From the NCBI RefSeq assembly GCF_022179805.1, contig NZ_BPUO01000002.1:372001-436000 (forward strand): 64,000 nucleotides of DNA. Direction: 5' to 3'. Below are positions 18,981 to 51,593 of this stretch, in pieces. This stretch comes from Cupriavidus pauculus. GTDB taxonomy: Bacteria; Pseudomonadota; Gammaproteobacteria; Burkholderiales; Burkholderiaceae. Each line of letters opens with the position of its first letter. Positions within the stretch are counted from its first letter, which is position 1. Both the position numbers and the translations under genes were made by a program. A model generated the notes under the pieces. The model had not been told where the DNA came from. It was given only the letters and a program-made list of their open reading frames with translations, and made no database searches.

Positions 18981-18989
18981 GATAAAAAT

Positions 18990-19253
18990 ATGAAATTGCA
19001 CGGTAGGAACAGGCTGCAGGAGCTGTTCGGACTGGATGACCAGACCGACAGGTGGCTTCGCGCCTGGATTTCAGAGGTAGCGAGTGCAAACTGGAAGCAA
19101 GCCAAGGATGTGCTTCGTCAGTTTCCTCAAGCGAAATGGGTTACAGACAACGTTGTCCAGTTCCACGTAGAGCCTCAGGCGGCGTGGATTGAGGTGGCGA
19201 TGTCATTCTCACCTCCCGTGGCCGTCGTATGCGATCTGAAGCGCACAAAATAG
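18990..19253 (+). CDS. higB: HigB-family toxin-like protein
   Basis: An 87-residue protein with the layout of HigB/RelE-fold mRNA interferases: MKLHGRNRLQELF, then WLRAWISEVASANWKQAKDV near residue 22, and FPQAKWVTDNVVQFHV near 45. Known relatives act on ribosome-bound mRNA. The C-terminus (WIEVAMSFSPPVAVVCDLKRTK) departs from the usual RLVVRIAY...GTHAEYD ending, so catalytic residues may be changed. It precedes a HigA-like gene by 8 bp, the family's typical toxin-first order, and sits behind a dual-operator promoter. Confidence 0.7.
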   Translation: MKLHGRNRLQELFGLDDQTDRWLRAWISEVASANWKQAKDVLRQFPQAKWVTDNVVQFHVEPQAAWIEVAMSFSPPVAVVCDLKRTK

Positions 19254-19261
19254 CGATGTTA

Positions 19262-20476: not shown

Positions 20477-20477
20477 T

Positions 20478-21596: not shown

Positions 21597-21883
21597 GACA
21601 GTAGAGCGCTTGCCGCGCCTGCCCTTGGGGCGGTACGTCGCCAGATGTACCGCTCCAGCTCCTCGAGGACGTATCGCCAGCGCAGGCCCCCGGCCGTCCA
21701 CAGTGTAGTCACACTGTTCGGATTAGCAGCAGGGCTTACCTGCCCAACATACCTCCCTCCACTGTAGAAGTCCCTTAGAGTGACAGGGAGGGGTACGGTG
21801 CCAGTCAGCCTCGGCGAGCGAGCCAGCGACCCTGCCCAGCGGCACCGCCCTTGACTAAGTTATCGACCTCGACGCATCTCCCC

Positions 21884-23713
21884 TCAATTGCGTGCTGCGT
21901 GCTTCAGTTGCTCTTTCAGTCTCTCGATTTGATTTTTGAGCAATCCATTCTCATCCTCAAGGCTCTTAATTCTATCTTCCTTCCTGTTGCTCATTTTTGG
22001 AAATGATAGAAGCATATCAAGCTCATCCTTGAAGGGCATTATAGGTTGATAGAGTTTATGAAACGCTCGCCCGACAGCACCTCTGAATAACTCCAAAATC
22101 GGCGCATGCTCACCGGATGAGAGCACGTGGCTCGTTGCAATTCCGGGGTACGGATCAATATAGACGATTTTGCTGATTCCGAGTTGATAGGCTTTCTTTG
22201 CGCACAGTTCACAAGGGCTTGCTGTAGTAAATAGGACGCCACCCTGCAGCTGCTGCCCACCGTATTTCGAAATCTGGAGAAAAGCATTTTCTTCAGCATG
22301 AAGTGACCGGGTGTGAACTTGGTTCTTTTCCTTGTCCACCTCATTCTGTAGATCCTTAAAACAGAAGCAAAGATTCCTACCATTCAGTGTCTTCGAGCCT
22401 AAGGCTCCAGAGAATTTATGTGAGAGCACTGCTCGGAAGGTGCCATCGTTCTTTTCATAGTGACTGTACGCTTTCTCGTCGATGCCATTGAGTAAATCAT
22501 CGGCACTGCGTAAGAGGCATGGAACCTGGCCCTGAGCGGAATTATTCCACCCCACTGCCTTTACCGAATAGTTTGCATCCGTAACTACCGCTCCGACTTG
22601 CCGCGAAATACACCCGGAATTGTGCTTAACGCTGTAAGCGATTTGCATCCCACTCTCAATCGATGTAGGCATAATCAATCCGGGATGCATCATTAATGAT
22701 ACATACCACGCCAATTGACATCTAAGTTGGCTGTGCCCGTACTGATCGGTACGTGGATTGTTTACGTGGATATCCGCTATCTCAATACACTTCTGGATAT
22801 TCTGGGATGTATATTTTCTGTAACCGCTCAACTTATCAGGATACTCCTTGGCATCGAGATCAAGAATCTGCTGATCGGAGAATTTTCGACTATTACGCAA
22901 ATGTGAAAGTCGATTCTCATTAGCTGTGTTGACAGCGAGCAAATGAAAATCTGCGTATCTTTCCTTGAGGAACATGGCCTCATAGGGATTCCGAATCGCG
23001 TCGATCACAATGTAGCAAGGCACACCCTCTTGGCGAGACACAAACCGGGCCGACTTGATGACCTTATTAATCGTTACGGAGAGACTAAATATCTTATCAG
23101 GATCGAACTTGCTATTGTTAGCGCATCCTGACGTCCTGATGTTATCTCCCACTATCTGATAGACCCTCGTATAGGCATCAATCGAGAGTTTTTTCAGATG
23201 TTCTCGGAGCTGATCAGAAAATAATGGAAGCCATTCAAAATAAATTTGATAGGCCACCTTCTTCTTGTTTTCTTGAGACTCAACTGTATCGTCCTTAGCA
23301 CCCAAGTAATCCTTTATTCTTGCGTGCGCCTCCTCATACTCTGGTTTGAAGCTCCTGAGCTTCTCCCTAACATCTGGAAGATTGTCCCCGAGGATTTCGG
23401 CGACAAGTTTTGTAAACTCAGCAAAACTCAATACAAGAATATAACGCGTAATGACAGATCTCACTTGCAGCCATTTGAAAGGGTGCCAATGGGGCTCAAG
23501 GTAACGCTTAACTATTCTGAACTTTCTTGCCTCATTTCCGGTGTAGTGCGAAGCTCCGGCTTCTGGCAAATTTCGTAGATCGCCCGACAAAATCTGAGCA
23601 GTGGTGGAGCACCCGGAGCCAGTCCTACCTGTCAGTCCAATAACTATGAAATCACTGGACTCCTTAAATACATTCTCCAAGGCAACCGAAACCTTTTCCA
23701 CATCCTCCAACAT
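21884..23713 (-). CDS. avcD: Antiphage dCTP/dCMP deaminase with N-terminal P-loop kinase-like domain (AvcD/DCD type)
   Basis: A 609-residue protein of the AvcD/DCD defence family, which depletes deoxycytidine nucleotides during phage infection. The N-terminal P-loop domain has Walker A GLTGRTGSGCST at about 26-37. The C-terminal zinc-dependent deaminase domain has the HAE motif in SLHAEENAFLQ near residue 470 and the PCxxC zinc ligands in ASPCELCAKKAY near 500. A coiled coil covers the last 30 residues. The start follows AAGGAG at 7 nt. Base use is clearly more AT-rich than the host, and the gene runs against the island's other genes. Non-coding sequence upstream could hold an AvcI-like RNA inhibitor. 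Confidence 0.85.
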   Translation of the reverse strand: MLEDVEKVSVALENVFKESSDFIVIGLTGRTGSGCSTTAQILSGDLRNLPEAGASHYTGNEARKFRIVKRYLEPHWHPFKWLQVRSVITRYILVLSFAEFTKLVAEILGDNLPDVREKLRSFKPEYEEAHARIKDYLGAKDDTVESQENKKKVAYQIYFEWLPLFSDQLREHLKKLSIDAYTRVYQIVGDNIRTSGCANNSKFDPDKIFSLSVTINKVIKSARFVSRQEGVPCYIVIDAIRNPYEAMFLKERYADFHLLAVNTANENRLSHLRNSRKFSDQQILDLDAKEYPDKLSGYRKYTSQNIQKCIEIADIHVNNPRTDQYGHSQLRCQLAWYVSLMMHPGLIMPTSIESGMQIAYSVKHNSGCISRQVGAVVTDANYSVKAVGWNNSAQGQVPCLLRSADDLLNGIDEKAYSHYEKNDGTFRAVLSHKFSGALGSKTLNGRNLCFCFKDLQNEVDKEKNQVHTRSLHAEENAFLQISKYGGQQLQGGVLFTTASPCELCAKKAYQLGISKIVYIDPYPGIATSHVLSSGEHAPILELFRGAVGRAFHKLYQPIMPFKDELDMLLSFPKMSNRKEDRIKSLEDENGLLKNQIERLKEQLKHAARN

Positions 23714-24362
23714 CTTCCATCTCCTTGTTGCTTATTTTTTCATTCAAAGCATTCTAGCAGTATTGACAGCCAGAGGGATCTTTCCGAATTTGCTTTCTTG
23801 AGCAGCTAACATGGGGCCGCCAAGCTTAGCTCGAAAACTGCGGCAGTTGCGTACCGTGTTGTCCACGCCAGGCACCGTAGGGGCTCGCCACCCCAAGAGG
23901 CTTTGGGGATCTGGCCAAGATAATGAGATTCCGTGGGGATAATGAGCTTTCGTCACGAGCAGCGGCGCCCCCCCATAGCTAGGTACTTACTTCGGAAACA
24001 ACCCCCGTTTCTGCAGAGGTCGCCCACCCCTTACCCCCAGTACCTTTGGAAACCATGACCCTTTTCGGGGAAAGCCTGAAAGGCATAGGGGGTACTTTTT
24101 TTGGGAGTCTGAATATCTGGGGACGGTTTCCAGCGTGCAAGGCTCAACAACAGCAATAGCTCAAGGGCTTTAACCCTTTTTTGAAGATCGATTCGATTCG
24201 ACTAGGGGGGGGTACTTGGGCAGAGCGGTCGGAAAAATCCTGACAGCGTCACCACAGCGAAACCCCAGGGACAGATCGAGGACCGTCCGAGGGACACGTT
24301 GAGAGAACTCAAGGAAATCCGTGGCTGATCTTCAAGACACTGAGGAGTACGGAATCGGTCCC
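23714..24362. other. Long non-coding region upstream of avcD; possible regulatory RNA
   Basis: About 650 bp without a credible gene. It contains a hairpin CCCCAAGAGGCTTTGGGG (23891-23908), the repeat GATAATGAG twice within 35 bp near 23920-23950, the recurring string GGGGGTACTT near 24090 and 24210, and a small plus-strand hairpin with T tract (24163-24182). In known AvcID systems a small RNA is encoded just upstream of avcD, so this is the place to look. No homology to a known AvcI could be tested. Confidence 0.4.
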
Positions 24363-24448
24363 TTTCGTACCCAAGTCGCACGATATGTACGAAAGTAAGC
24401 CTAGACAAATTTCGTACATAGAGTATTATTCGTACATCTCTTTCGTAC
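24363..24448. repeat. Array of TTTCGTAC boxes upstream of the serine recombinase
   Basis: TTTCGTAC occurs at 24363-24370, 24410-24417 and 24441-24448, ATTCGTAC at 24428-24435, and the inverse GTACGAAA at 24387-24394. All lie within 100 bp before the recombinase start at 24460. They could be resolution-site subsites bound by the recombinase, or operators for it. Confidence 0.6.
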
Positions 24449-24459
24449 ACATTAGCCCC

Positions 24460-25056
24460 ATGTCCAGAGTCTTCGCTTACTGCCGCGTCTCCACCTCCGA
24501 TCAGACGACCGACAACCAGGTCAGGGAAATCGAAGCGGCTGGGTTTGCCATTCAGGCGAAGCGCATTGAGATTGAGGTGGTGAGCGGGTCCGTCGCTGCG
24601 TTTGAGCGCCCTCGCTTCTCGCGTCTGGTAGATCGCATGGAAAGCGGGGATGTCCTCGTCGTGACCAAGCTGGACCGACTGGGCCGCAATGCGATGGACG
24701 TGCGGAGCACCATTGATAGGCTGGCTGCTGATGGCATCAGGGTCCATTGCTTGGCCCTTGGGGGCGTGGACCTTACTAGCGCAGCGGGACGGATGACTAT
24801 GCAAGTCCTTGCCGCCGTGGCTGAGTTTGAGCGGGACCTGCTCATCGAGCGCACGACCGCAGGTATCAGTAGGGCGAAGGCCGAAGGCAAGGCCTTTGGA
24901 CGGCCCTCAGCGCTCTCGTTGGCGCAACAGGATGCTGTGCGCTCTCAACTCGCCCAAGGCGTCTCTGTGGCCCAGCTCGCGAGGGACTTCAATACAACTC
25001 GCCAGACCATCATGCGTATCCGCGCCAAGGACCAGGCGATCTCAGTTTCTATCTGA
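24460..25056 (+). CDS. Small serine recombinase (resolvase/invertase type)
   Basis: A 198-residue member of the small serine recombinase family. The catalytic N-terminal domain begins [20 protein letters not shown] with nucleophilic Ser11 and neighbouring Arg9, followed by [10 protein letters not shown] near residue 75 and the long E-helix. The C-terminal helix-turn-helix is [19 protein letters not shown] near 170. It is full length and no key residue is missing. It might resolve multimers or invert DNA within the element; the boxes upstream are candidate binding sites. It is independent of the tyrosine integrase. Confidence 0.92.
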
Positions 25057-25506
25057 TGCCCCTTGTGCCCCTGAGGAAGCGGGACCGAGAAGGGATGCTC
25101 CACAGCAGCAGTCTAGCTTGGAGTCTCGAAATTCGCGGCCAGTATCTCTGCCCCAACAGTTAGCCCCACGGGGCTGGCCCTACATCCCTCCGTCATAGGC
25201 GCGTTGACGTGGACTTCAATGTCGTCAAATGCCGCCGTAGCCCGCTCGCTCGCTCCGCACAACCTCCTTGCGGACATATGCATTCGCCACCGTCACCAAG
25301 CAATGCCGTCACTCCGTCTTGGACCGAAACTCTGATGTGATTCGATCTGATTTGATCTGATCTGATATCACAATCGAAGTAACCAATTCCCGCATGGATC
25401 ATATCACGCTAATTCAAATGATTCCCGAGGGCCACGGGAGGTGATTAGGAGGCATGCACGGTCGCACGACTATCATTCATTTGTCACCGCTATCGAGAAT
25501 ATCGAC
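25057..25506. other. Non-coding stretch with a GATCTGAT repeat block
   Basis: No gene is seen. At 25331-25372 the sequence is a run of overlapping GATCTGAT/TGATTTGATCTGAT units with 5-10 bp periodicity, ending in GATATCAC. It lies 135 bp before the short gene and may be an operator or an origin element. Confidence 0.4.
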
Positions 25507-25728
25507 ATGAAGAGAATCAAACCCCCGATTTACCCGTGGCAGCAAGAACCCCTCTTTCCGCAAAAGCAAAAACATCACTCACTCGGAGTCCCAGTAACAT
25601 CGGAGATGTACTTAAAAATACAGTGGATTATTAATAACAAGCCCGGCTATAGATCCATGCGAGCGTTTGCCGTGACAGCTCTTTCCAATGAAATAGAGCG
25701 GACACTAGCAGAGCTTGATATCAAGTGA
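25507..25728 (+). CDS. Small protein coupled to the polymerase-like gene
   Basis: A 73-residue protein beginning MKRIKPPIYPWQQEPLFPQ. Its second half (GVPVTSEMYLKIQWIINNK, then YRSMRAFAVTALSNEIERTL) alternates a short strand and helices in a way that suggests a ribbon-helix-helix DNA-binding fold, but the match is weak. The start at 25507 is chosen over a GTG at 25441. Its stop codon overlaps the GTG start of the next gene (GTGA), so they are translated together. Confidence 0.5.
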   Translation: MKRIKPPIYPWQQEPLFPQKQKHHSLGVPVTSEMYLKIQWIINNKPGYRSMRAFAVTALSNEIERTLAELDIK

Positions 25729-27035
25729 GTATGCGCACCATGGATGCCGACGAGTTCTCTGTAATAGCCACGGAGGCAGAGGAGAACGACAGACCCATCA
25801 ATGGGATGCGGGTAGCCGCAAGCGAGTCAGCTCGCGAAATGATCATCGACATTACTGGTCAGCTACTAGTTTTGGAAGACTACTATGAAATGCGCGAAAG
25901 GAAACGAAAAAAGACTGATCAACGCCTATTCGAGCAACAGGTCGAAGCAATTATATGCGACCTAATTCATCGTGATCTTACGAGACCTGGAAAATCCATT
26001 GCAGTACCATTCACCAAGGCCATCCTTGGTTCAAAGGATAGGTATCGCTCTCCCATATTGAACAAGACCCTTCCAACGGTCATCCGGAATATGGCGATGC
26101 CTGAAATGGACTTCCTTCAGCTAGAACTGGGATTTCCTCGTGCCTTTACCGAGCGGCCCGGTAGACAAACGACGATCAGAGCGAGTGATCGGCTGCGGGG
26201 ACTCGCCTCACATTACGGTATTGGGCTTAAGGACTTGGGCATCCAGCTGGGTGGGGAGACTATCATCCTAAAGGAAACCAACAGCGGCCCCTTCGACAGG
26301 GGCGGACGCATCCAATACGTAGACACTGCTGATACGAATCGGTATCGGGAAGAGATGAGGCGAATCAATGCATTCCTAAGCGAAGCCGACATCAGTCTGC
26401 TGACCACCTCAAAGCCGATTGATGCAAATGATCGTTATCTCGTGAGGGTATTCAACGACGGAAGCTTTGCAAGAGGTGGCCGATTGTTTGGTGGATTTTG
26501 GCAAACCCTTTCGAGACAGGACCGGCAAGATTTGATCTTGATAGACGAAAACGACACCGTGACCCTGGACTATGGACAGATGGCACCTCGAATTCTCTAT
26601 GGAATGAAGGGTGTTCAGCCTCATTTTGATGATGCCTACGCAATACCGGGACTCGAAGCGTACCGTACCGGAGCGAAGAAGGTTTTCAACTCCATGATCC
26701 ACCCGGAAAAGACGTTATCACGCAAGCCCAGAGGGACTAAAAGCCTCCTGCCCCCTTGGCCTATTAAGAAAATAATGGACACCATAACGACATTCCACAG
26801 CCCGATTGCCGACCTTTTCTTCGCCGACAAAGGAATGGAAGTCTTTTTCATTGAGAGTCAGATTCTGGTTGCAGTGCTGCTCAAATTATGTGATCTCAAT
26901 ATTGCCGCCCTACCCATTCACGACGCGATTATTGTGGCCGATCATCATCAGGGGCAGGCCCAATCAATTATGCATGACACTTTCCTGACTATGACCGGCA
27001 TCGAAGGAACTGTCAGCATCGAAAGCCCTAACTGA
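25725..27035 (+). CDS. Putative palm-domain polymerase-like protein of mobile elements
   Basis: A 436-residue protein without a known name, resembling conserved hypothetical proteins of plasmids and islands. Its C-terminal half carries an order reminiscent of family A DNA polymerases and T7-type RNA polymerase: motif A-like VTLDYGQMAPRILYG with Asp282, motif B-like Arg314 plus Lys at +4 and Asn at +8 (YRTGAKKVFNSMIHP), and motif C-like PIHDAIIVADHH with His399-Asp400. A conserved FNDGSFARGGRLFGGFWQ segment precedes motif A. No exonuclease or thumb domain is obvious. GTG start overlaps the preceding stop; ATGs at 25731 and 25740 are alternatives. A replication role is inferred. Confidence 0.6.
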   Translation: MSMRTMDADEFSVIATEAEENDRPINGMRVAASESAREMIIDITGQLLVLEDYYEMRERKRKKTDQRLFEQQVEAIICDLIHRDLTRPGKSIAVPFTKAILGSKDRYRSPILNKTLPTVIRNMAMPEMDFLQLELGFPRAFTERPGRQTTIRASDRLRGLASHYGIGLKDLGIQLGGETIILKETNSGPFDRGGRIQYVDTADTNRYREEMRRINAFLSEADISLLTTSKPIDANDRYLVRVFNDGSFARGGRLFGGFWQTLSRQDRQDLILIDENDTVTLDYGQMAPRILYGMKGVQPHFDDAYAIPGLEAYRTGAKKVFNSMIHPEKTLSRKPRGTKSLLPPWPIKKIMDTITTFHSPIADLFFADKGMEVFFIESQILVAVLLKLCDLNIAALPIHDAIIVADHHQGQAQSIMHDTFLTMTGIEGTVSIESPN

Positions 27036-39391: not shown

Positions 39392-39403
39392 TGCGGGGTG
39401 CCC

Positions 39404-40975
39404 ATGAGCCTGCTGCGCCTGCCATGGCGACGCCAACCCGCCGCAGGCAGCACCCGCCCGCCTGAACCGCCACGCCCCACGCTGGCCGACGCCGCCGCCG
39501 AGGATGCCGCGCTGGCCGACGCCCTGCCCCACCTGGAGGAAACCTCCGCTCATCCCGCACCGCGCTCGCTGTTCGGTGAAATCCTGGACTGGATGCTGGC
39601 GCCTCTGCTGCTGCTCTGGCCGATGAGCATCGCGGTCACCTACCTGGTGGCCAAGTCCATCGCGAATGGGCCGTTCGACCGCGCGCTGGAAGCCAGCGCC
39701 ATCGTGCTGTCACAGCAGGTGCGCGAGGTGAACGGGCGGGTGACGCTGCAGTTGCCGCTATCGGCTCGCGAGATCTTGCGCGCCGACGAGACCGACAACA
39801 TCTACTACCAGGTGGTGGGCAAGCGCGGCGAGTACGTGGCCGGCGATCACGACCTGCCCCTGCCGCCCGAGGACGAACAGGGCCATGCGGGGCTGGTGTC
39901 GATGCGCGACGAACGCGTGGCCGGCAACGACGTGCGCGTGGCCTACACCTATGTGGACCTGAAGGGCGTAGGCGGCAACCAGCCGGTGCTGGTGCAGGTG
40001 GCCGAGACGCTGGACAAGCGTGCGCGCCTGGCCAACGAGATCATCAAGGGCGTGATCCTGCCGCAGTTCGTGATCCTGCCGCTGGCCGTGGTGCTGGTGT
40101 GGTTTGGCCTGACGCGCGGGCTGGCGCCGCTCACCGCAATCCAGCAGCGCATCCGGGCACGCAATCCCGGCGATACGAGTCCGATCGACGAGCGCGCGGC
40201 GCCGCAGGAAATCACGCCACTGGTGGCGTCGTTCAACGACCTGCTGGCCCAGCTCGACCAGTCGGTGCAGACGCAGAAGCGCTTCATTGCCGATGCCGCG
40301 CACCAGATGAAAACGCCGCTGGCCGGGCTGCGCATGCAGGCCGAACTGGCGCAGCGCGAACAGTCGCCCGAAGAGTTGCGGCGGTCGCTGGCGCAGATCG
40401 CCGGCAGTTCCGAACGCACCGCACACCTGGTGACCCAGTTGCTGTCTCTGGCGCGCATGGAAAACCTGGCGGGTGTAGGCGGCATGGCGCCGCTGGACCT
40501 GACCACACTGGCCCGCGACGTGGTCAAGGACTGGCTGCCGCAAGCGTGGGCGCGCCGCATCGATCTGGGCCTGGAAGCCGACGATCATCCGGTCATGATC
40601 ACCGGCAATCGGCTGATGCTGACCGAGATGCTGAACAACCTCGTCGACAACGCCATTCGCTACACGCCGGCCGGCGGCCATGCCACCGTGCGCGTGAGCA
40701 CCGATGCGTTCGAGCCGTTCGTTTATCTCGATGTGGAGGACACCGGATCAGGCATCGCCCCGGGGGAGCGCGAACGCGTGATGGAGCGCTTCTACCGCGT
40801 GCTGGGCACCAACACCGAAGGCAGCGGCCTGGGCCTGGCCATCGTGCGCGAGATCGTGCAGCAGCACGGCGGCGAGGTCACCATCGACGACAACGTCTAC
40901 CAGGCGTCGCCGCGCCTGGCGGGCGCACGCTTCCGCGTCACGCTGCGCCGCACCGAGCCTGAAGACGACTCATGA
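39404..40975 (+). CDS. Sensor histidine kinase, TctE/QseC-like
   Basis: A 523-residue inner-membrane kinase. An N-terminal cytoplasmic stretch precedes a helix at about 70-90, a periplasmic sensor of the TctE-like (2CSK) type, and a second helix near 220. HAMP follows, then the H box ADAAHQMKTPLAG near 305, the N box NNLVDNAIRYTPAGG, and G boxes DTGSGIAPGERERV and GSGLGLAIVREIV. A GTG at 39398 is an alternative start. Its stop overlaps the DUF4212 start (ATGA), tying the pair to that small membrane protein. Carboxylates are the usual signals of the family. Confidence 0.92.
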   Translation: MSLLRLPWRRQPAAGSTRPPEPPRPTLADAAAEDAALADALPHLEETSAHPAPRSLFGEILDWMLAPLLLLWPMSIAVTYLVAKSIANGPFDRALEASAIVLSQQVREVNGRVTLQLPLSAREILRADETDNIYYQVVGKRGEYVAGDHDLPLPPEDEQGHAGLVSMRDERVAGNDVRVAYTYVDLKGVGGNQPVLVQVAETLDKRARLANEIIKGVILPQFVILPLAVVLVWFGLTRGLAPLTAIQQRIRARNPGDTSPIDERAAPQEITPLVASFNDLLAQLDQSVQTQKRFIADAAHQMKTPLAGLRMQAELAQREQSPEELRRSLAQIAGSSERTAHLVTQLLSLARMENLAGVGGMAPLDLTTLARDVVKDWLPQAWARRIDLGLEADDHPVMITGNRLMLTEMLNNLVDNAIRYTPAGGHATVRVSTDAFEPFVYLDVEDTGSGIAPGERERVMERFYRVLGTNTEGSGLGLAIVREIVQQHGGEVTIDDNVYQASPRLAGARFRVTLRRTEPEDDS

Positions 40976-41325
40976 AAAGAACGCCCCGCGACCGGATGAC
41001 GCCGCTGGAGCGGCGCGCCTGGTATCACAACGTGCGCTGGATCACCGCGCTGCTGGCGGCGTGGTTCGTCATGACGTTCGGCGTGAGCTGGTTTGCACGC
41101 TCGCTGCGCTTCGACTTCATGGGTTGGCCGTTTTCCTACTGGATGGCCGCCCAGGGCTCGCTGATCCTCTACGTGCTGATGGCCGCGCTCTACGCCTGGC
41201 GCATGAACCGCGCCGACGACGAGGCGCATGCGCGCGAGCGTGAACTGGCCAGCGCCGAAGCCCACCCGGCGCCGCCCGACCAGGCTGGCAACACCCCTGG
41301 CACCCCCCCGCCGCCCACTATCTAG
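40972..41325 (+). CDS. DUF4212 small membrane protein (symporter small subunit) without its partner
   Basis: A 117-residue protein with two membrane helices (WITALLAAWFVMTFGVSWF and YWMAAQGSLILYVLMAALYAW) and a Pro-rich tail. The RRAWYHNVRW and FDFMGWPF motifs match DUF4212, usually the small subunit of a sodium:solute symporter encoded next to the large subunit. Here no large subunit follows; the next gene is an MFS transporter 300 bp away. Either the partner is elsewhere, or this small protein acts with the kinase or MFS protein. Confidence 0.8.
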   Translation: MKRTPRDRMTPLERRAWYHNVRWITALLAAWFVMTFGVSWFARSLRFDFMGWPFSYWMAAQGSLILYVLMAALYAWRMNRADDEAHARERELASAEAHPAPPDQAGNTPGTPPPPTI

Positions 41326-41631
41326 GGGTTTCCTCGCGGTTGGCGCGTATTGCTGCGGAGCAAGAATGGCGCAATTGGCGACGCCATGCGGTCCGCGCGC
41401 CAGATGGCACGCAGTGCAGCATGCAGGGCACCTTCCAGGCGCACATTTTCTCTAGCGTATACCCCGACGGATTCAGCCCCGTTTGTCCTGAATCTGTCAG
41501 AACTCAGTAAGTTTCGCCTCCCACAATCGTTCCAACCTCGGCGCAATGGGCCTGTGCGTGCACTCGTACGACACCGACGGCGGGGACCCTGAAGATTTTC
41601 GACGGAAGAACGGAAACGGAGGAGACAACAA

Positions 41632-43329
41632 ATGGCAAACGCGCATAACGTGGGAGCCGTGCCCGGGGGCACTGCTCACAATGCGCCGATGACGAAGGAA
41701 GAGAGAAAGGTCATTCTGGCCTCTTCCCTAGGCACGGTGTTCGAGTGGTACGACTTTTACCTGTACGGTTCGCTGGCGGCGGTCATCGCCAAGCAGTTCT
41801 TTGCCGGCCTGGACCCGACGTCCGCCTTCATCTTCGCACTGCTGGCTTTTGCTGCGGGCTTCATCGTGCGGCCGTTCGGCGCACTGGTGTTCGGCCGCCT
41901 GGGCGACATGATCGGCCGCAAGTACACCTTCCTGGTGACCATCCTGATCATGGGCCTGTCGACGTTCATCGTCGGCCTGCTGCCCGGCTACGCCACCATT
42001 GGCTGGGCCGCGCCGATCATCCTGATCCTGCTGCGCATGCTGCAGGGCCTGGCACTGGGCGGTGAGTACGGCGGTGCCGCCACCTACGTGGCCGAGCACG
42101 CTCCGCACGGCAAGCGCGGCGCCTACACGGCGTGGATCCAGACCACGGCCACGATGGGCCTGTTCCTGTCGCTGATCGTGATTCTGCTGGTGCGTGAAGC
42201 CACGGGCCCGAACTTCGACGTGTGGGGCTGGCGTATCCCGTTCCTGCTGTCGATCCTGCTGCTGGCCATGTCGGTGTACATCCGCCTGTCGATGAGTGAG
42301 TCGCCGGCCTTCCAGAAGATGAAGGCCGAGGGCAAGACGTCGAAGGCACCGCTGACCGAAGCCTTTGGCCAATGGCGTAACCTGAAGATCGTGATCCTGG
42401 CGCTGGTGGGCCTGACCGCCGGCCAAGCCGTGGTCTGGTACACGGGCCAGTTCTACTCGCTGTTCTTCCTGACGCAGGTGCTGAAGGTGGACGCGAAGAC
42501 GGCCAACCTGCTGATTGCCGGCGCACTGGTGATCGGCACGCCGTTCTTCATCTTCTTCGGCTCGCTGTCGGACAAGATCGGCCGCAAGTGGATCATCATG
42601 CTGGGCTGCGCGCTGGCCGTGCTGACCTACTTCCCGCTGTTCAAGGCGATGACCCACTACGCCAACCCGGCACTGGAACGCGCCCAGCAGTCGGCCCAGA
42701 TCGTGGTGACGGCAGACCCGGCCAGCTGCTCGTTCCAGGGCAGCCCGATCGCACGTGAAATCGACTTCCGCAGTTCTTGCGACATCGTCAAGCGCACGCT
42801 GGCCCAGGCATCGGCCAGCTACGAGGTGGTGAACGCTCCGGCGGGCACCGTTGCCTCGGTGAAGATCGGCGACAAGGAAATCAAGTCGTTCGACGCCACG
42901 GTGGGCAAGGGCGCCTTCGATGACGCCAGCAAGAAGCAGATCGCCGACTTCAAGAAGGCGGTCAGCAGCGAGATGAGCGCGCACGGCTATCCGACCAAGG
43001 CCGACCCGGCCCAGATGAACACGATCATGGTGCTGGTGATCCTGGTCATCCTGGTCATCTACGTGACGATGGTCTACGGCCCGATCGCGGCCATGCTGGT
43101 GGAAATGTTCCCCACCCGCATCCGCTACTCGTCGATGTCGCTGCCCTACCACATCGGTAACGGCTGGTTCGGCGGCCTGCTGCCCACCATCTCGTTCGCG
43201 CTGGTGGCCCAGAACGGCAACATCTACTACGGCCTCTGGTACCCGATCGTGATCGCCGCCATGACCTTCGTCCTGGGCGCGCTGTTCGTGCGCGAGACCA
43301 AGGACATCGACATCTACGCCAACGACTAA
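41632..43329 (+). CDS. MHS-type MFS transporter with a large inserted loop
   Basis: A 565-residue metabolite:H+ symporter of the MFS. Motif-A-like LVFGRLGDMIGRKYTFL near residue 85 and the LGGEYGGAATYVAEHAPHGKRG segment near 140 are typical of the ProP/ShiA group. Between helices near residues 345 and 460 is an inserted hydrophilic segment of about 115 residues (with two Cys, CSFQGS and SSCDIV), making the protein longer than the usual 430-460. A GGAGGAG site precedes the ATG. Substrate unknown. Confidence 0.88.
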   Translation: MANAHNVGAVPGGTAHNAPMTKEERKVILASSLGTVFEWYDFYLYGSLAAVIAKQFFAGLDPTSAFIFALLAFAAGFIVRPFGALVFGRLGDMIGRKYTFLVTILIMGLSTFIVGLLPGYATIGWAAPIILILLRMLQGLALGGEYGGAATYVAEHAPHGKRGAYTAWIQTTATMGLFLSLIVILLVREATGPNFDVWGWRIPFLLSILLLAMSVYIRLSMSESPAFQKMKAEGKTSKAPLTEAFGQWRNLKIVILALVGLTAGQAVVWYTGQFYSLFFLTQVLKVDAKTANLLIAGALVIGTPFFIFFGSLSDKIGRKWIIMLGCALAVLTYFPLFKAMTHYANPALERAQQSAQIVVTADPASCSFQGSPIAREIDFRSSCDIVKRTLAQASASYEVVNAPAGTVASVKIGDKEIKSFDATVGKGAFDDASKKQIADFKKAVSSEMSAHGYPTKADPAQMNTIMVLVILVILVIYVTMVYGPIAAMLVEMFPTRIRYSSMSLPYHIGNGWFGGLLPTISFALVAQNGNIYYGLWYPIVIAAMTFVLGALFVRETKDIDIYAND

Positions 43330-43410
43330 GGCTAGCAAGCATTCACCGGAGGGATACGACCGGTAACCCTCGCTCAGGATGGCTGGCCGGCAGGCCAGCC
43401 GCTCCTTCCA

Positions 43411-43438
43411 GGCAGACCCTCGGGTCTGCCATTTTTTT
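43411..43438 (+). terminator. Intrinsic terminator of the MFS gene
   Basis: GGCAGACCC (43411-43419) pairs with GGGTCTGCC (43422-43430), followed by a run of seven T. Just upstream GGCTGGCC/GGCCAGCC (43381-43400) forms a second hairpin. Confidence 0.9.
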
Positions 43439-43478
43439 GGGCAAACGCGAAAGCTTGCAGAAAGTTGCCACAAAGCTG

Positions 43479-43506
43479 TTGACAGGTTCGAAACCGTAGG
43501 TATAAT
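43479..43506 (+). promoter_or_regulatory. Promoter of tRNA-Met
   Basis: TTGACA (43479-43484), 16 bp, TATAAT (43501-43506): consensus sigma-70 hexamers 13 bp before the tRNA. Confidence 0.9.
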
Positions 43507-43519
43507 TTCGTTCTTCGTT

Positions 43520-43596
<77 letters not shown>

Positions 43597-43604
43597 TCTA
43601 TTTG

Positions 43605-43639
43605 AAAAGCCGCAATCCTTCACGGGATTGCGGCTTTTT
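43605..43639. terminator. Terminator after tRNA-Met, probably bidirectional
   Basis: AAAAGCCGCAATCC pairs with GGATTGCGGCTTTTT; both strands have the T run, so it can also end the convergent decarboxylase transcript. Confidence 0.85.
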
Positions 43640-43703
43640 GCTTTGGGTTTCTGGTTTTTGCCCCTGGGCAGCGAGTCGCCGCCCAGGGCCTGCCGCCCTA
43701 CTC

Positions 43704-45413
43704 CTACCGCTCCAGCTCCACCATCACCGCAGCCAGCTTCGCGCTGTCCAGCGCCAACTGCCGCTGCTCCTCCAGCACGCCCTGCAGGATTGCCTGCGTG
43801 GTGTCCGGATTCGCCAGCACCACCCGGAACACCGCAATCGCGCGGCTATCCCATTGCGAGGACGTGAGCTGCGTGCGCGAGACGAACGAGCGGCCGGCGT
43901 CGCGCTGCCTTTCCTGGATGTCGATGGTCAGCGCGTCGAGCGCCTGCTGGATCCGCTCACGCCGGTCGGCGGGTGTAGCGGGCGACAGCAGCGCGGCCCG
44001 CACCGGCTCGGGTACGTAGCGGTAGGTCAGGATGCAAAGCTGCGGGCGGCTGTCGAGCTCGAAGTCGGGCTGGCGCTCGATCAGGTCGGCGAAGTATCTG
44101 GCGTTGTCGATGCCGGTATCGATCAGTCTGGCCAGCCCCTTGCGGCCCAGCAGATGCAGGTTGGCATAGAGCATCACGGCCGCCGCGCCACGCGAGCCTT
44201 CCAGCGTGTGGCGACCCAGGTCCACCGATCCCTTGCGGACGATGTAGTTGGCGTGCTGGATGATGTCCTGCGTTCTGGCGGGATCGCGGAACAACACCAT
44301 GCCGGCACCCATCGGCACGTAGAACTGCTTGTGGGCATCGATGACCACCGAGTCGGCACGCTCGATGCCAGCAAAGCGCCAGCGTTCCCGCTCGGACAGC
44401 AGCGTGGCCCCGCCCCACGCCGCATCAACGTGGAAATGGCAATCGAATTCCTGCGCAACGTCGGCAATGGCGTCGAGCAGATCAACGGCGCCGGTTTCGG
44501 TCGTGCCGGCGATGCCGACGATGGCCATCGTGCGAATGTTGCGCTGCTGCAGGTCCTGGATTGTCTGGCGCAGCAGGTCAACCCGCATGCGGCCGTCCGC
44601 ATCGACGCCGACGGGCACCAGGTTGTCGCGGCCGATGCCCAGGATGTCAGCCGCCTTGCGCAGCGAGTAGTGACCACGCTCCGAGACCACGATGGCAAGA
44701 CCGTCGTACCCGTAGTGCCGCAACGCCGCCACCAGCCCGGCACCGTTGATGCCGGCAAACCCGTCGCGCGCACGCAGCGCATGGTTGCGGCTGGCCCAAA
44801 GCGCCGACAGGTTTGCCGTAGTGCCGCCCGAGCAGAACGCGCCCAGCGAGTGTTCGGCATCGTGCAGCCATCGGGCATAGAACGTGTTGTCCTGCCCGAA
44901 CACGAGCTTGTGCAGCATGCCGATGACCTGCCGCTCCAGCCCCGTCAGCGTGCCCGAGGTTTCGAGCTTCACTACGTTCTGGTTCAACGCCGCCACGATC
45001 TTGGCCAGCGACGGCATGAACGACGGCAGCGATGACGTCATGTGCCCGACGAAGGTGGGCGCCGCCACGGGCATCACGTGGCGGAACACATCGTTGAGCA
45101 GGTGATCGGCATGCGCCTGCGGTGCGGTGGGATCTTCAGGCAACTCCACCGAGGCGAACTGCGCCTCGCGCGTGGCACAGGCGCCCACGGGGTCGAAGTC
45201 CTGGCTTGCGAAGAAGTCGGCCGGATGCTCGGCGATGCGTCGCTCCAGGTCTTCGAATGCGCCGCGGTCGGCGTCGAACCAGTGCAGCGGGCAGTCGGCA
45301 TCGCCCACGGGTTGAGCGTGCGATGTGTCTATCGCGGTCACCCCTGCGGCGTTCGTCTCCGGCCCGTTCGTCTCCGATGCAATCGTTTCCGGCGCAAGTC
45401 TTTGGCGCTTCAT
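43704..45413 (-). CDS. Group II PLP-dependent decarboxylase (PanP/glutamate-decarboxylase-like)
   Basis: A 569-residue pyridoxal-phosphate decarboxylase. Family motifs are GAFCSGGTTANLSALWASRN near residue 200, the segment HFHVDAAWGGATLLSE near 330 (Asp of the PLP site), and the PLP Lys in VIDAHKQFYVPMGAG near 360. The closest named relatives act on aspartate (PanP) or glutamate; the substrate cannot be chosen from motifs alone. ATG at 45413 is preferred over 45419 for its ribosome-binding-site spacing. No partner antiporter is adjacent. Confidence 0.85.
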   Translation of the reverse strand: MKRQRLAPETIASETNGPETNAAGVTAIDTSHAQPVGDADCPLHWFDADRGAFEDLERRIAEHPADFFASQDFDPVGACATREAQFASVELPEDPTAPQAHADHLLNDVFRHVMPVAAPTFVGHMTSSLPSFMPSLAKIVAALNQNVVKLETSGTLTGLERQVIGMLHKLVFGQDNTFYARWLHDAEHSLGAFCSGGTTANLSALWASRNHALRARDGFAGINGAGLVAALRHYGYDGLAIVVSERGHYSLRKAADILGIGRDNLVPVGVDADGRMRVDLLRQTIQDLQQRNIRTMAIVGIAGTTETGAVDLLDAIADVAQEFDCHFHVDAAWGGATLLSERERWRFAGIERADSVVIDAHKQFYVPMGAGMVLFRDPARTQDIIQHANYIVRKGSVDLGRHTLEGSRGAAAVMLYANLHLLGRKGLARLIDTGIDNARYFADLIERQPDFELDSRPQLCILTYRYVPEPVRAALLSPATPADRRERIQQALDALTIDIQERQRDAGRSFVSRTQLTSSQWDSRAIAVFRVVLANPDTTQAILQGVLEEQRQLALDSAKLAAVMVELER

Positions 45414-45497
45414 GTGCATTACCCACTCAATCCCGTGCCGCGGCCGCGCGGCCTTTTGGCAGGGATTATGCCGCATCGGGCTTGCGGTGGCGGGCGG

Positions 45498-46198
45498 CTA
45501 CTGCACCACGGTGACCTCTTTCCTTGCACGCGGCCTTGTCATGCGCGGAGCCGTCTCCGCTTCCAGCGGCAGCAGCCGGTGGATCCTCGCAAACTCCGCC
45601 AGGTCGATCAGCGAGCTGAAACCCAGCTTGTCCATGATGCTGGCCTTGTGCGAACTGACGGTCTTGTTGCTGATCTCCAGCACCTCCGAGATCGCCTTGT
45701 TGGATTGCCCCACCGCCAGAAGGCGCAGCACGGTCAGCTCGCGCCGGCTCAGCAGGCTCATGGGATCGGCCGGATTGGCGGCGGCCCGCCGGAAGGTCGG
45801 CAGCGACTTGATCGGAAAGGCGACATAGCCGGCCATCAACGCGCGTACGGCGTCGGCCAGCCCGTCCAGCCCCGCACTCTTGTCGATGTACCCGTGGGCG
45901 CCGCCCAGCAGCGCGCGCTCGCCCGCGCGACGCTGCGCGGACAGCACCAGCACGCACGTGGTCGACCAGGTCGTCACCACTTCCTCCAGCGCGGCATCGC
46001 CGGGCAGGTCATCAAGTTGCAGATCCATCACGACCAGGTCGGCCGGACGGTCCCTCAGGGCAAGCAGCGCGCCGGCGCCGCCGTTGGCAACGCGAACCTC
46101 CTCGAACCCACCCGCATTCTCCAGAACAGTACATACGGCCTTTCGGACCACGGGATGCGGGATGCGGGATGCGGATCGATAACGATGGCATTTGGCAT
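45498..46198 (-). pseudogene. NarL/FixJ-type response regulator frameshifted by a heptanucleotide repeat
   Basis: From ATG at 46198, with GGAG upstream, the receiver domain starts MPNAIVIDPHP; the remainder VVRKAVCTVLENAGGFEEV lies in another frame. Between the two is (GGGATGC)3 on the plus strand. One copy restores IDPHPVVRKAV and 228 residues; four copies also keep frame; three do not. The phospho-acceptor Asp is in LVVMDLQL, and the LuxR-type HTH is near the C-terminus (LSRRELTVLRLLAVGQSNKAI). The second acidic-pocket residue is Pro (IDPHP). As sequenced, full-length protein would not be made, though internal GTG at 46151 could give a receiver-truncated form. Confidence 0.85.
46152..46172 (-). 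repeat. (GGGATGC)3 slippage-prone tract in the response-regulator start
   Basis: Three perfect 7-bp units in the coding 5' end, 26 nt after the ATG. Copy-number changes by slipped-strand pairing would toggle the frame. Confidence 0.9.
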
Positions 46199-46522
46199 GT
46201 CAGGACTCCGTGTGAAAGCACTAGCGGGAGCATAGATTTTTTGCAGCCGCACGGATGTCAGCCCGGTCTGGTTTTGTTGTATGAAATTTCCGTAATGCCC
46301 TGCGGAAACTTCAGATGTTGAGTATTTGTATCGGCCGGATGCTTGCGAAACTGCGAGTGCCGCAGATTTCCGGACTATGCGATCAGGCGGATGACAATCG
46401 TGAAATCCTTAAATATTCCGCCTGGATTTGATCTACGTTACGGTATGAGCACGATGTGCGTGCCAAGATGGTCACGTAGCGCGTACAGCGCCCCGAAGCT
46501 TTTCAACCAAGGAGATAGCGCC

Positions 46523-46981
46523 ATGCCCCCGATGTCCAATATCGTGCTTGCCACCGACGGCTCCGCCTTCAGCGATGCCGCCGCGCGTTTTCTGGCCGAT
46601 GGCAAGCTGCTGCAGTCTGGCTTCACGGTGCACGTGCTGCACGTATCGCCCGACGTCACGGGCCAGGTGCGCGCCTTCGTCAACAAGGAAACCATCGATG
46701 CCTGGCACAACGAGGCCAGCGAGAAGGCCATGGCATCGGTCTGCGCGATACTCGAAGGCGCGGGTATTCCGTTCGAATGCCATGCGCTGCATGGCTATCC
46801 GCCCGAGAAGATCCTTGGCCATGCGAAGTCGGTGAATGCTGCCGCCATCGTCATGGGTACCCACGGACGCGGTTCGTTCTTCGATGCGGTACTGGGTTCC
46901 GTCGCTGGGCGCGTGCTGGCGCAGGCCGATTGCCCGGTGGTGATGGTGAAGGCGGCAGACAAGGACAAGCCGACGGCTTGA
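46523..46981 (+). CDS. Universal stress protein (UspA family)
   Basis: A 152-residue UspA-fold protein. It begins MPPMSNIVLATDGSAFSDAA, has the ATP-binding-type segment AAAIVMGTHGRGSFFDAVLGSVAGRVLAQADCPVV in the G-x2-G-x9-G(S/T) layout, and the classical length. AAGGAGA precedes the ATG. It is divergent from the response regulator across a 324-bp gap in which TTTCCG/CGGAAA at 46288-46310 is a loose inverted repeat. Confidence 0.92.
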   Translation: MPPMSNIVLATDGSAFSDAAARFLADGKLLQSGFTVHVLHVSPDVTGQVRAFVNKETIDAWHNEASEKAMASVCAILEGAGIPFECHALHGYPPEKILGHAKSVNAAAIVMGTHGRGSFFDAVLGSVAGRVLAQADCPVVMVKAADKDKPTA

Positions 46982-46997
46982 CCTGAGGGATGACGGA

Positions 46998-48047
46998 CTA
47001 CGCCGACCAGAGCGGCGGTTCGTCCATCAGCGCGATCTGCTCGCGCAGTTCGAGGATGCGATCCTGCCAGTAGCGGGCGGTACCGAACCACGGAAACGCC
47101 GCCGGGAACGCGGGGTCGCGCCAGCGGCTGGCCAGCCAGGCGCTGTAGTGCAACAGCCGCAGCGTGCGCAGCGGCTCCACGAGCCACAGCTCGCGGGTAT
47201 CGAAATCGGCGAAGTCCTCGTAGCCCGCGACGATATCGGCCAACTGGTCCTGCATCGCGGCACGATCGCCTTCCAGCAGCATCCAGATATCCTGCACCGC
47301 CGGCCCCATGCGGCTGTCGTCGAAGTCGACGAAATGCGGGCCCGGTGCGCCACGTCCGCGCGCATCGTCTTCATCGATCCACAGCACGTTGCCGCGATGG
47401 CAATCGCCATGCAGGCGCAGCGTACGCACATCGCCCGCGCGCTCGTAGCAGCGGCGCACGGCGTCCAGCGCCAGGTCCACCGCCGCGCGCCAGGGCGCGA
47501 GCAGGTCAGCGGGAATGCAGTCGTTGGCGATCAGATAGTCGCGCGCGGCCACACCGAACGTTTCGACATCGAGCGCCGGACGTGCGTGATAGGGTGCCGC
47601 GGCGCCGCAGGCATGAATGCGGCCGATAAAGCGGCCCAGCCACGTACGCGTGGCCGCCTGGTCCAGCGCGGGCTCGCGGCCGCCGCAGCGGGGAAACACG
47701 GCAAACCGGAACCCCGCGTGCGTCAACAGCGTGCTGGCGGGTTGCCCGCCCACCGTCGCGGTCAGCGCCGGCACGGCCGGGATCTCGGCATCGGCCAGTT
47801 GCTGCACGAACGCGTGTTCTTCAAGAATCGCCGCGTCGCTCCACCGGCCGGGCCGGTAGAACTTCACGACCAGCGGCGCGGCATCCTCGATGCCCACCTG
47901 CCAGACGCGGTTCTCGTAGCTGTTCAGGGCCAGCAACCGGCCATCCGGATAGAAACCCGCCGCCTCGAGCGCATCGAGGATGCACTCGGGCGTGAGTCCC
48001 GCATAGGGGACGTCGGCGCTGGGCGATGGGTGATCCGGTGCGGTCAT
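46998..48047 (-). CDS. srkA: Stress-response kinase SrkA/YihE
   Basis: A 349-residue Ser/Thr kinase of the YihE family that counters stress-induced death in E. coli. The nucleotide region has VVKFYRPGRWSD near residue 60, the catalytic loop LRLHGDCHRGNVLWIDE near 210, and the metal-binding VDFDDSRMGPAVQDIWM near 238. Full length. It lies 12 bp downstream of rhlE, so the two are probably co-transcribed. Confidence 0.93.
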   Translation of the reverse strand: MTAPDHPSPSADVPYAGLTPECILDALEAAGFYPDGRLLALNSYENRVWQVGIEDAAPLVVKFYRPGRWSDAAILEEHAFVQQLADAEIPAVPALTATVGGQPASTLLTHAGFRFAVFPRCGGREPALDQAATRTWLGRFIGRIHACGAAAPYHARPALDVETFGVAARDYLIANDCIPADLLAPWRAAVDLALDAVRRCYERAGDVRTLRLHGDCHRGNVLWIDEDDARGRGAPGPHFVDFDDSRMGPAVQDIWMLLEGDRAAMQDQLADIVAGYEDFADFDTRELWLVEPLRTLRLLHYSAWLASRWRDPAFPAAFPWFGTARYWQDRILELREQIALMDEPPLWSA

Positions 48048-48059
48048 TGCGGGGTCCCG

Positions 48060-49664
48060 TCAGGGCGCCTTGCGATTGCCGCCAAGCAGCGCGGCTTGCG
48101 GCGCGGGGCGGCGATTGCGGGCCGGAGCGGCCGCCACGCTGTCCTGCGCGGGGCGCGGCGACTGCGGACGTGCCTGTTGCGGACGCGCTTGCTGCGGACG
48201 CTGGCCGGCCGGCTTTGCTGCATTGGCCGTGCCGTTGTTGCCGGCACCATTGCCACCGCCGTTGGCAGGCTTGCGTGCCGCGCCATTGGCATTCCCATTG
48301 GCGCTTCCATTGGCACTGCCGTTGCGGCCGTCGCCACGCGCGGGCTTTGCGGCCTGCGCGGGACGCGCCTGGCGCGGTGCTTCCTGGCGCTGGCCTTGCG
48401 GCGCGCGAGGCTGACGACGTTCGCCGGCGCCGGCATTGCCGCCACCGTTGCCGCGCGGCTGGCCGCCGCCGCGTTGCTGGCGCCCCTTCTGGATCGGCTC
48501 GGCCGCGATGCTCGGGTCCACTTCGAATCCGGGCAGCGACACCTGTTCGATCTGACGCTTGATCAGGCGCTCGATGTCACGCAGCAGGCCGTGTTCGTCC
48601 ACGCAGACCAGCGAAATCGCCTCGCCCTCGGCGCCCGCGCGGCCCGTGCGGCCGATGCGGTGCACGTAGTCCTCGGGCACATTGGGCAGGTCGAAGTTCA
48701 CCACATGCGGAAGCTGGTCGATATCGATACCGCGTGCGGCGATGTCGGTGGCCACCAGCAGGCGCAGCGTGCCGGCCTTGAACTCGGTCAGCGCGCGCGT
48801 GCGGGCCGACTGGCTCTTGTTGCCGTGAATGGCCAGCGCAGACAGGCCGTCCTTGGTTAGCTGTTCCGCCAGGCGGTTGGCGCCATGCTTGGTGCGCGTG
48901 AACACCAGCACCTGGTGCCAGTCATGCTGGCGCACCAGGTGGGCCAGCAGTTCGCGCTTGCGTTCGCGGTCCACCGGGAACACGCGCTGCGCCACGGTTT
49001 CGGCCGTGGTGTTGCGGCGTGCCACTTCGATCGAGGCTGGGTTGTTCAGCAGGCGGTCGGCCAGCGCGCGGATGTCGTCCGAGAACGTGGCCGAGAACAG
49101 CAGGTTCTGGCGCTTGGGCGGCAGGACGTTCAGGACCTTGCGGATGTCGTGGATGAAGCCCATGTCGAGCATGCGGTCTGCTTCATCGAGCACCAGCAGT
49201 TCCACATGCGACAGGTCGATCGTGCGTTGCGACACGTGGTCGAGCAGGCGGCCCGGCGTGGCCACGACGATGTCGACGCCGCGCTTCAGCGCTTCGATCT
49301 GGGGATTGATACCCACACCGCCAAACATCACCATGGATCGCAGCTTCAGGTACTTGCCGTAGTTGCGGACGCTCTCCTCAACCTGGGCGGCCAGCTCGCG
49401 CGTGGGAGTCAGCACCAGGGCGCGCACTTGCGGGCGGGCGCCACGGGGCGCCGGATTGCGCGCGGCGGACTCGGACAGCAACTGCAGCATGGGCAGCGTG
49501 AAGCCTGCCGTCTTGCCGGTGCCGGTCTGAGCACCGGCGAGCAGATCGCCACCTTTCAGAATTGCGGGAATGGCTTGCGCCTGAATCGGGGTTGGCGTGG
49601 TGTAGCCCTGTTCGGCCACGGCACGCGCCAGCTTGTCGGACAAGCCGAGTTCGGAAAAAGACAT
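48060..49664 (-). CDS. rhlE: DEAD-box RNA helicase RhlE
   Basis: A 534-residue ATP-dependent RNA helicase linked to ribosome assembly and RNA decay. The Q motif region ([21 protein letters not shown]), Walker [14 protein letters not shown] near residue 45, DEAD in [15 protein letters not shown] near 160, SAT in [11 protein letters not shown], and [13 protein letters not shown] are all present. The C-terminal 150 residues form a basic low-complexity tail rich in Gly, Asn, Arg and Ala, including [15 protein letters not shown]. Confidence 0.95.
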
Positions 49665-49904
49665 GAAAGGACGCTTCGGCCGCCTGTCGCGCAGCAGATG
49701 TGCGCCAATCGTCGGGCGGCTCGGGTAGATAACCGTGCCTGGGTGCAGGCCGGCGGGACGGGTCGATTGCCCCCGCTCCCGGGCTGGAAAGGCCCGTAGT
49801 GTACCAGTCTGTGGAAATGGGCGTACCGGTAGTAGGCTTCAGGTGGCCCTGCGCTATCATGGCGGCCACCCGGTGCCGGCGCGCGCCAGCCCCCTCCCAT
49901 CGCC

Positions 49905-51593
49905 ATGCGGTTCCGTTTTCTCGAAGACCAGGAAGTCACGCTTTTCGCGGCCATCCCCATTGGCCTGCTGGCGGGCATCGTGACCACACTGTTCAAGGAC
50001 GCGCTGGAAGCCAGCGGGCTGGTCATGTTCGGCAAGAACGCCGATATCGTGCTGGTCTTCGCCGGCCTGGCACTGGTGTGGCGCGTGGTGATTCCGATGG
50101 TTGGCGGCGCCGTGGCCGGCGCGCTGGTGGTGGCCGCGCAGCACTATGCGCGCACCGAGACCCTGCCCAGCGAATACATGGAAGCCGTGGCACGCGGGTC
50201 TGGCCGGCTGCCGATCAAGATCACCCTGCTGCGCGCGCTGTCGTCGTTCTGCTCGATCGTATCGGGCAGCTCGGTCGGCAAGGAAGGCGCCATGATCCAG
50301 CTGGCCGCGCTGACCGGCTCGGTCTTTCCGTCGAGCCGCGCCGACCAGGCCGGCGACGACAGCAACATGCGCCGCATGCTCACCGCCTGCGGTGCCGCCG
50401 CCGGTCTTGCCACCGCCTATCACACGCCGTTGTCCGCCGCCGTCTTCGTGGCCGAAGTCGTGTTCGGCGCACTGGCCGTGCAGCGGCTGATGCCGCTGTT
50501 CCTGGCTTCGGTGGCCGGCACGATGGTCAGCCAGTGGCGCGGCGGCCTGGAGCCGCTCTACACCGGGCTTCACATCGGCCCGGACCTGCTCCAGCAGCCG
50601 CACCTGCTGCTGGCCGCCGCCGGCATCGGCCTGATCGCGGGCGTTTCGGGCGCGGTATTCATGCGCGCCAACACGCTGGCCCGCAACGGCTTCCGGCACG
50701 TGCCCGGCGGCCCGGTGGCGCGCCTGGCGCTGGGTGGCCTGCTGGTGGGGCTGCTGGCCACCGTGGTGCCCGAGGTGGTGGGCAACGGCTACTACACGAT
50801 CCAGACGATCCTGCGCAACGAACCGCTCTCGGTGGCGGTCTGGGGCGTGCTGCTGGCCAAGCTCGTGGCCACCGTGGTCAGCATGGGCTCCGGCGCCATT
50901 GGCGGTGTGTTCACGCCGTCGATGTTCGTGGGCGCGGCGCTGGGCCAACTGGTGGCGCTTGGCATCCCGGGCGGGACCGATACGCCGGTGCTGCCACTGG
51001 TGGGGATGACGGCTTTCCTGGCCGCCACCAGCCAGGCGCCGCTGATGTCGATCCTGATGGTGTTCGAGATGACGCTGGCGCCCACGCTGTTGCTGCCGCT
51101 GATGATCGGCGCGGTGGCGGCGTACTACACGGCGTCGCGCTGCCAGACGCTGTCGCTGTACAGCGTGGTTGTGGAGCGCGCCCAGGCCAGCGCCGCCGTG
51201 GAACGCGCGCGCGGGTTGCGCCTGGCCGGGCTGTGCGATCCGACGAACACGGTCATCGACCCCACTGCTTCGGTGGCGCAGGCAGCGGACAAGTTCGCCG
51301 AAACCGGCACGCGCTACCTGTACCTAGTGGACGCCGCCGGCACGCTGCTGGGCGCCATCTCGATCCACGCCGTCCAGCGCGCGCAGCGCGAGGCGCCGGA
51401 TGCCACGCTGCTGTCGCTGGGCGACCTCTGCTTCCCCTGCCTGACCCCCGACTCGCGCCTGCGCGATGCGCTGGCCATCTTCTCGGAACATGGCATCAAC
51501 CGCATCCCACTGGTGCGCGATGCCGCCAGCCGCGAACTGATGGGCACCGTATCCAAGCAGCGCGTGCTGCAAGAGGCATCCTGCCTGTTCTAG
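49905..51593 (+). CDS. clcB: ClC chloride channel/transporter with C-terminal CBS pair
   Basis: A 562-residue ClC family membrane protein with about 12-14 helices. The permeation motifs read VSGSSVGKEGAMIQLAAL (in place of GREGP) near residue 110 and GSGAIGGVFTPSMFVGAALGQ near 325. A CBS-domain pair fills residues 430-555 (CDPTNTVIDPTASVAQAADKF and LCFPCLTPDSRLRDALAIF). It may exchange Cl-/H+ or conduct Cl-. Divergent from rhlE. Confidence 0.9.
   Translation: MRFRFLEDQEVTLFAAIPIGLLAGIVTTLFKDALEASGLVMFGKNADIVLVFAGLALVWRVVIPMVGGAVAGALVVAAQHYARTETLPSEYMEAVARGSGRLPIKITLLRALSSFCSIVSGSSVGKEGAMIQLAALTGSVFPSSRADQAGDDSNMRRMLTACGAAAGLATAYHTPLSAAVFVAEVVFGALAVQRLMPLFLASVAGTMVSQWRGGLEPLYTGLHIGPDLLQQPHLLLAAAGIGLIAGVSGAVFMRANTLARNGFRHVPGGPVARLALGGLLVGLLATVVPEVVGNGYYTIQTILRNEPLSVAVWGVLLAKLVATVVSMGSGAIGGVFTPSMFVGAALGQLVALGIPGGTDTPVLPLVGMTAFLAATSQAPLMSILMVFEMTLAPTLLLPLMIGAVAAYYTASRCQTLSLYSVVVERAQASAAVERARGLRLAGLCDPTNTVIDPTASVAQAADKFAETGTRYLYLVDAAGTLLGAISIHAVQRAQREAPDATLLSLGDLCFPCLTPDSRLRDALAIFSEHGINRIPLVRDAASRELMGTVSKQRVLQEASCLF

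Follow-up and report, generated by a model that had tools for sequence, protein, structure and literature searches.

What does a short heptanucleotide repeat do to the gene in which it lies? In the 64,000-nucleotide stretch of Cupriavidus pauculus DNA that was analysed (the window; contig 2, positions 372001-436000, of a 6.8-Mb draft genome in 38 contigs), a gene for a response regulator is divided between two reading frames at such a repeat. The regulator may have been lost, it may be switched by changes in repeat number, or a shorter form of it may still be made. The features on which the answer depends are the following.

43704..45476, minus strand: PanP, pyridoxal-dependent aspartate 1-decarboxylase, intact (TIGR03799, 801.4 bits; cut-off 606.1)
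45498..46151, minus strand: downstream frame of the regulator gene, carrying the regulator body (receiver without its first strand, and LuxR-type HTH), 217 codons (stop-free; Pfam)
46055..46198, minus strand: upstream frame of the regulator gene, with ATG 46198, about 10 codons common to relatives (MPNAIVIDPH), the tract and an out-of-frame stretch (translation)
46151..46174, no strand assigned: perfect heptanucleotide tandem tract, CGGGATG x 3.4 (Tandem Repeats Finder, 100% matches)
46523..46981, plus strand: universal stress protein, divergent neighbour, intact (Usp domain within the longer ORF 46343-46981; synteny)

The split gene and its repeat

The minus-strand frame that opens at ATG 46198 encodes MPNAIVIDPHPASRIPW... 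and runs into a stop after 47 codons. A second frame, different from the first, is open from GTG 46151 to 45498 and contains Pfam matches to Response_reg and to the full GerE HTH. In the window piece the Response_reg match begins at position 10 of the 111-position profile; two relatives that were scanned match from position 2, and their receiver and HTH are both full length. With the tract placed after about codon 10, the upstream frame holds no more of the receiver than strand beta-1 with its Asp; the tract thus removes the first strand and an acidic residue, and the receiver and HTH stay together in the downstream frame. The first-pass annotation had placed the receiver in one frame and the remainder in the other, a description that has to be corrected, since all of the receiver but its first strand lies with the HTH. 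Alignment with relatives showed that the body retains key residues of the receiver family, the phospho-acceptor Asp of VVMDLQ, the Ser of VLVLSA and the Lys of YIDK, as well as the HTH.

A receiver followed by a GerE/LuxR HTH is the arrangement of NarL/FixJ-type regulators, and it is found in the downstream frame; no single frame of the window gene holds a complete receiver. The closest NCBIfam matches of the window piece are FimZ (110 bits, cut-off 271) and EvgA (88.1 bits, cut-off 251), and the closest solved structure is EvgA 5f64. With both scores far under the NCBIfam cut-offs, the gene is an equivalog of neither.

The regulator gene is flanked by the genes for the universal stress protein and PanP, an order common to most same-locus relatives. 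Eight ORFs in 39398-51593 match relatives; the regulator is one of them, and the other seven are all unbroken. No histidine kinase is encoded directly beside the regulator; one lies about 4.5 kb off (39398-40975), past PanP and a transporter gene. That the regulator controls the adjoining genes is a guess from gene position alone. Elsewhere in the window, positions 17515-27035 are G+C-poor (ORFs mostly 0.45-0.59, against about 0.66). This stretch encodes a phage-type integrase (17515-18498), PADLOC matches to PD-Lambda-2 B and C (19229-21596), a dCTP-deaminase-type defence protein (21884-23713), a resolvase (24385-25056) and a 434-codon ORF with no Pfam or PADLOC match (25731-27035). It is probably a mobile anti-phage defence island.

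The tract itself is 24 bases long, contains three GGG runs plus GG, and holds three whole GGGATGC units at 46152-46172; the 21-base array CGGGATGCGGGATGCGGGATG has a single occurrence in the source genome. Since seven is not divisible by three, the number of units sets the reading frame, a point on which the first-pass annotation was right. The tract clearly exceeds chance expectation, as judged on samples of 400 kb and 464 kb of the 6.8-Mb genome. It is the sole period-7 array with three units in 464 kb (the window plus 20 sampled stretches), and none arose in six Markov-5 simulations of that set. Moreover, the 400-kb sample of the same genome outside the window contains no three-unit heptamer, and the 33 period-7 arrays that it does contain, each of at least two units, measure 14 to 16 bases. 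From base composition alone, 0.0012 arrays of the kind found here would be expected per 6.8 Mb.

Other roles for the tract were considered and rejected. For ribosomal frameshifting, no convincing slippery heptamer was found at the tract on inspection by eye. A G-quadruplex or hairpin role is disfavoured by the presence of only three GGG runs and by a DNA folding z-score of 0.52, nothing beyond shuffled sequences. In terms of the GGGNATC-type G-quadruplex repeats, neither four G-runs nor many dispersed copies were found. Membership in a dispersed heptamer family was likewise rejected: the exact array is present in 2/60 genus genomes (in the other one, at L045, between two ORFs) and in 4/299 family genomes, the source genome included. 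The looser pattern GGGANNC x 3 forms one array in the source genome and occurs in 14/60 genus genomes against 12/60 for the reversed control, and is therefore not enriched in the genus. The arrays elsewhere are read as sporadic heptamer arrays rather than a single family. Two long G-rich heptamer arrays of many units, of GGGAGGC and GGGACTC, were seen in other genus genomes (G016:C2:38000-38272 and G009:C18:150433-150544).

Related loci and the age of the break

A DNA search of 60 genus genomes, the source genome included, found matches in 56 of them, and many of these matches fall on other regulators. The best 30 of this search, the source genome and 29 others (L016-L044), were compared, and 28/29 of the other loci had a frame that covered most of the query in the alignment. 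Thirteen loci (L016-L027 and L029) share as neighbours Usp, the APH-like kinase gene and/or PanP and make up the same-locus set. L028, L030 and L031 were excluded, their neighbours being different or outside the flank, and L032-L044, at about 40% identity, stand outside the set; the synteny comparison covered the closer loci. L009-L012 come from the same genomes as L017, L020, L018 and L019, and these were counted once. Among named organisms, the closest counterparts of the gene, at 82-83% protein identity, are those of Cupriavidus pauculus UM1, Ralstonia sp. 25mfcol4.1, Cupriavidus sp. D384 and U2. Plasmid records gave one match (71.6% over 22% of the query), and no same-species copy was found in them.

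All 13 same-locus relatives have one frame through the site, with the N-terminus M-x-x-A-[IL]-V-[IV]-D, and none of them has a tandem 7-base duplication there. In the five nearest, MPNAIVIDPH is identical and followed by one open frame. Three of the 13 (L021-L023) carry the codon run CATCCCGCCAT at the tract position; this run resembles an imperfect start of the heptamer repeat and suggests how the first copy may have originated. The distance between the regulator and PanP varies among relatives: extra DNA of about 3.5 kb lies there in C. pauculus UM1 (L009, 5633-9190) and of about 1.1 kb in Cupriavidus sp. U2 (L012, 5630-6845), and the gap in L010 is under 0.3 kb. In the group at about 40% identity, a related regulator (L034, genome G032) is shifted out of frame by a single base, at about 1630-1640, that L033 lacks; this could be a true loss or a sequencing error.

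The age of the break was approached through substitution patterns. Pairwise dN/dS is 0.175 between the window copy and its relatives and 0.084 among the relatives, a ratio of 2.09; the same ratio for the seven neighbour genes ranges from 0.73 to 1.50. Relaxed selection was first inferred from this doubling. Because the window lineage stands apart from the rest of the group, relative-rate tests were run with two outgroups, and they gave no confirmation: none of 10 comparisons for the regulator was significant (lowest p 0.118), with 8-11 window-specific changes against 4-8 in the other lineage. The strongest asymmetry, exceeding that of the regulator, was found in the neighbouring APH-like kinase gene, where 1/10 comparisons reached p 0.0117. 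At columns invariant in seven relatives, the window differs at 6/126 in the regulator, 13/348 in PanP, 1/103 in the stress protein and 2/156 in the APH-like kinase. Without significant acceleration in the relative-rate tests the break looks recent, and the 217 stop-free, well conserved codons argue that the event is young relative to the divergence from the nearest relatives. The doubled dN/dS could also reflect an older loss with partial relaxation.

Explanations of the frameshift

Whole units gained in a short tandem repeat are the hallmark of slipped-strand mispairing. The best reading of the locus, and one that we hold to be probable, is that a recent, lineage-specific frameshift of this kind inactivated a FimZ/EvgA-like regulator. 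Replication slippage immediately downstream of the first receiver strand would have multiplied a 7-base unit and put the regulator out of frame, and translation from the native ATG would end in a 47-residue dead-end peptide, so that no complete regulator is expected. The result would be a loss-of-function allele confined to the lineage, in which further slippage may occur, rather than a conserved switch. The tract, the split frame and the intact, tract-free genes of the relatives bear out the first-pass annotation in its main claim that a heptanucleotide expansion had put the regulator out of frame; from them we infer slippage as the cause, loss of the protein and a recent date. A mutator background was also considered; mutS and mutL are both present above cut-offs with open frames, so there is no sign of one, a point that counts against this reading. 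Three copies of a short unit can suffice for such events: in Pseudomonas putida, CTGG x 3 is the main frameshift hotspot in lacI and accounts for the largest class of lacI-inactivating mutations (excerpt of PMC3485313).

The first-pass annotation had left the choice between a phase-variable switch and a strain-specific knock-out. A switch would entail frequent, reversible changes in unit number, mixed populations and selection that keeps the tract. The frame-shifting unit, a position close to the 5' end, an occurrence clearly above chance and a downstream frame that remains intact are all consistent with it. Moreover, three-copy tracts can be mutable, as in lacI (excerpt of PMC3485313), and mutL alleles interconvert through small tandem repeats in Salmonella (excerpt of PMC2955026). 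An above-chance tandem tract in or just before a gene, with a unit able to shift the frame, is what a contingency locus displays; retention of the tract, however, was found in 0/13 same-locus relatives. The tract is also short, with 3.4 units against 6 to 38 in most Haemophilus influenzae heptanucleotide tracts (excerpt of PMC2651432), and the gene encodes a cytoplasmic regulator and no surface structure. In addition, only one other of 60 genus genomes and three others of 299 family genomes have the exact array, a sporadic distribution of the kind that occasional slippage would leave. Among the papers listed in the literature searches, none dealt with this locus or described switching by slippage in Cupriavidus; those on phase variation in the genus were covered by titles and abstract openings. 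We regard a switch as unlikely: of the two options, the knock-out fits best. A young slippage switch, in which reversible loss of the regulator beside the beta-alanine (PanP) and stress-protein genes would serve bet-hedging through a two-component regulator in place of a surface gene, is a speculative variant that we consider quite improbable.

A shorter functional protein might be translated from the internal GTG 46151 or a later start, giving either a phosphorylation-free regulator or an HTH-only product. Besides the GTG, an ATG at 45761 (a Lys codon in relatives) lies just before the HTH, and the downstream frame is fully open with low dN/dS. A recent break predicts low dN/dS equally, however, and the piece has lost strand beta-1 and the acidic residue. 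The Shine-Dalgarno match is 2 of 6 for GTG 46151 and 3 of 6 for ATG 45761, against 4 of 6 for the native ATG. With no good start in the downstream frame, loss of the regulator is expected, and a short product is very unlikely. An assembly or sequencing artefact, conceivable in a draft of 38 contigs, is less credible still, since the expansion is of whole units, unlike homopolymer errors, the 24-base tract is shorter than an ordinary read, and the seven compared neighbour genes are unbroken.

A slippage knock-out at this site would offer a clean and datable case of a regulator silenced by a 5' event in a large genome of high G+C content, in which tracts of this kind are rare to judge from the 400-kb sample. 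If unit number varied inside cultures, a signalling gene in an environmental beta-proteobacterium would join the genes known to be switched by slippage. For the present the locus is one disabled allele, which annotation pipelines will probably call a pseudogene.

Comparison with known systems

The window gene resembles FimZ, EvgA and other NarL-type regulators in joining a receiver to a GerE/LuxR HTH, and differs from FimZ and EvgA in being broken and in having no directly adjoining histidine kinase. As to the repeat, that of Salmonella mutL reportedly has a 6-base unit and leaves the frame unchanged. In both genes, few small tandem copies lie in the gene for a cytoplasmic protein and slippage leads, or in the window gene would have led, to a loss-of-function allele; for mutL, allele conversion was shown experimentally (excerpt of PMC2955026).

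The heptanucleotide tracts of H. influenzae share the 7-base unit with the window tract, and some of them also lie inside reading frames and shift the frame. Most, however, have many more units, are polymorphic among strains and are found in genes for adhesins or TonB-dependent receptors; the survey that describes them counted tracts from a threshold of 3 units (excerpt of PMC2651432). The GGGNATC repeats of Xanthomonas and Nostoc are, like the window tract, G-rich tandem heptamers. They are dispersed by the hundreds, are mostly extragenic and favour four units, whereas the window has one array with three GGG runs (excerpt of PMC4692102).

With lacI, an E. coli gene, the window gene shares a three-copy repeat inside a regulator gene in which gains and losses of whole units break the frame, although the lacI unit has 4 bases and its mutation was measured in P. 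putida, and the window unit has 7 bases and its mutation is deduced from sequence. The two also stand in opposite states, since the three-copy form of lacI is the working one and the three-unit form of the window gene is broken (excerpt of PMC3485313).
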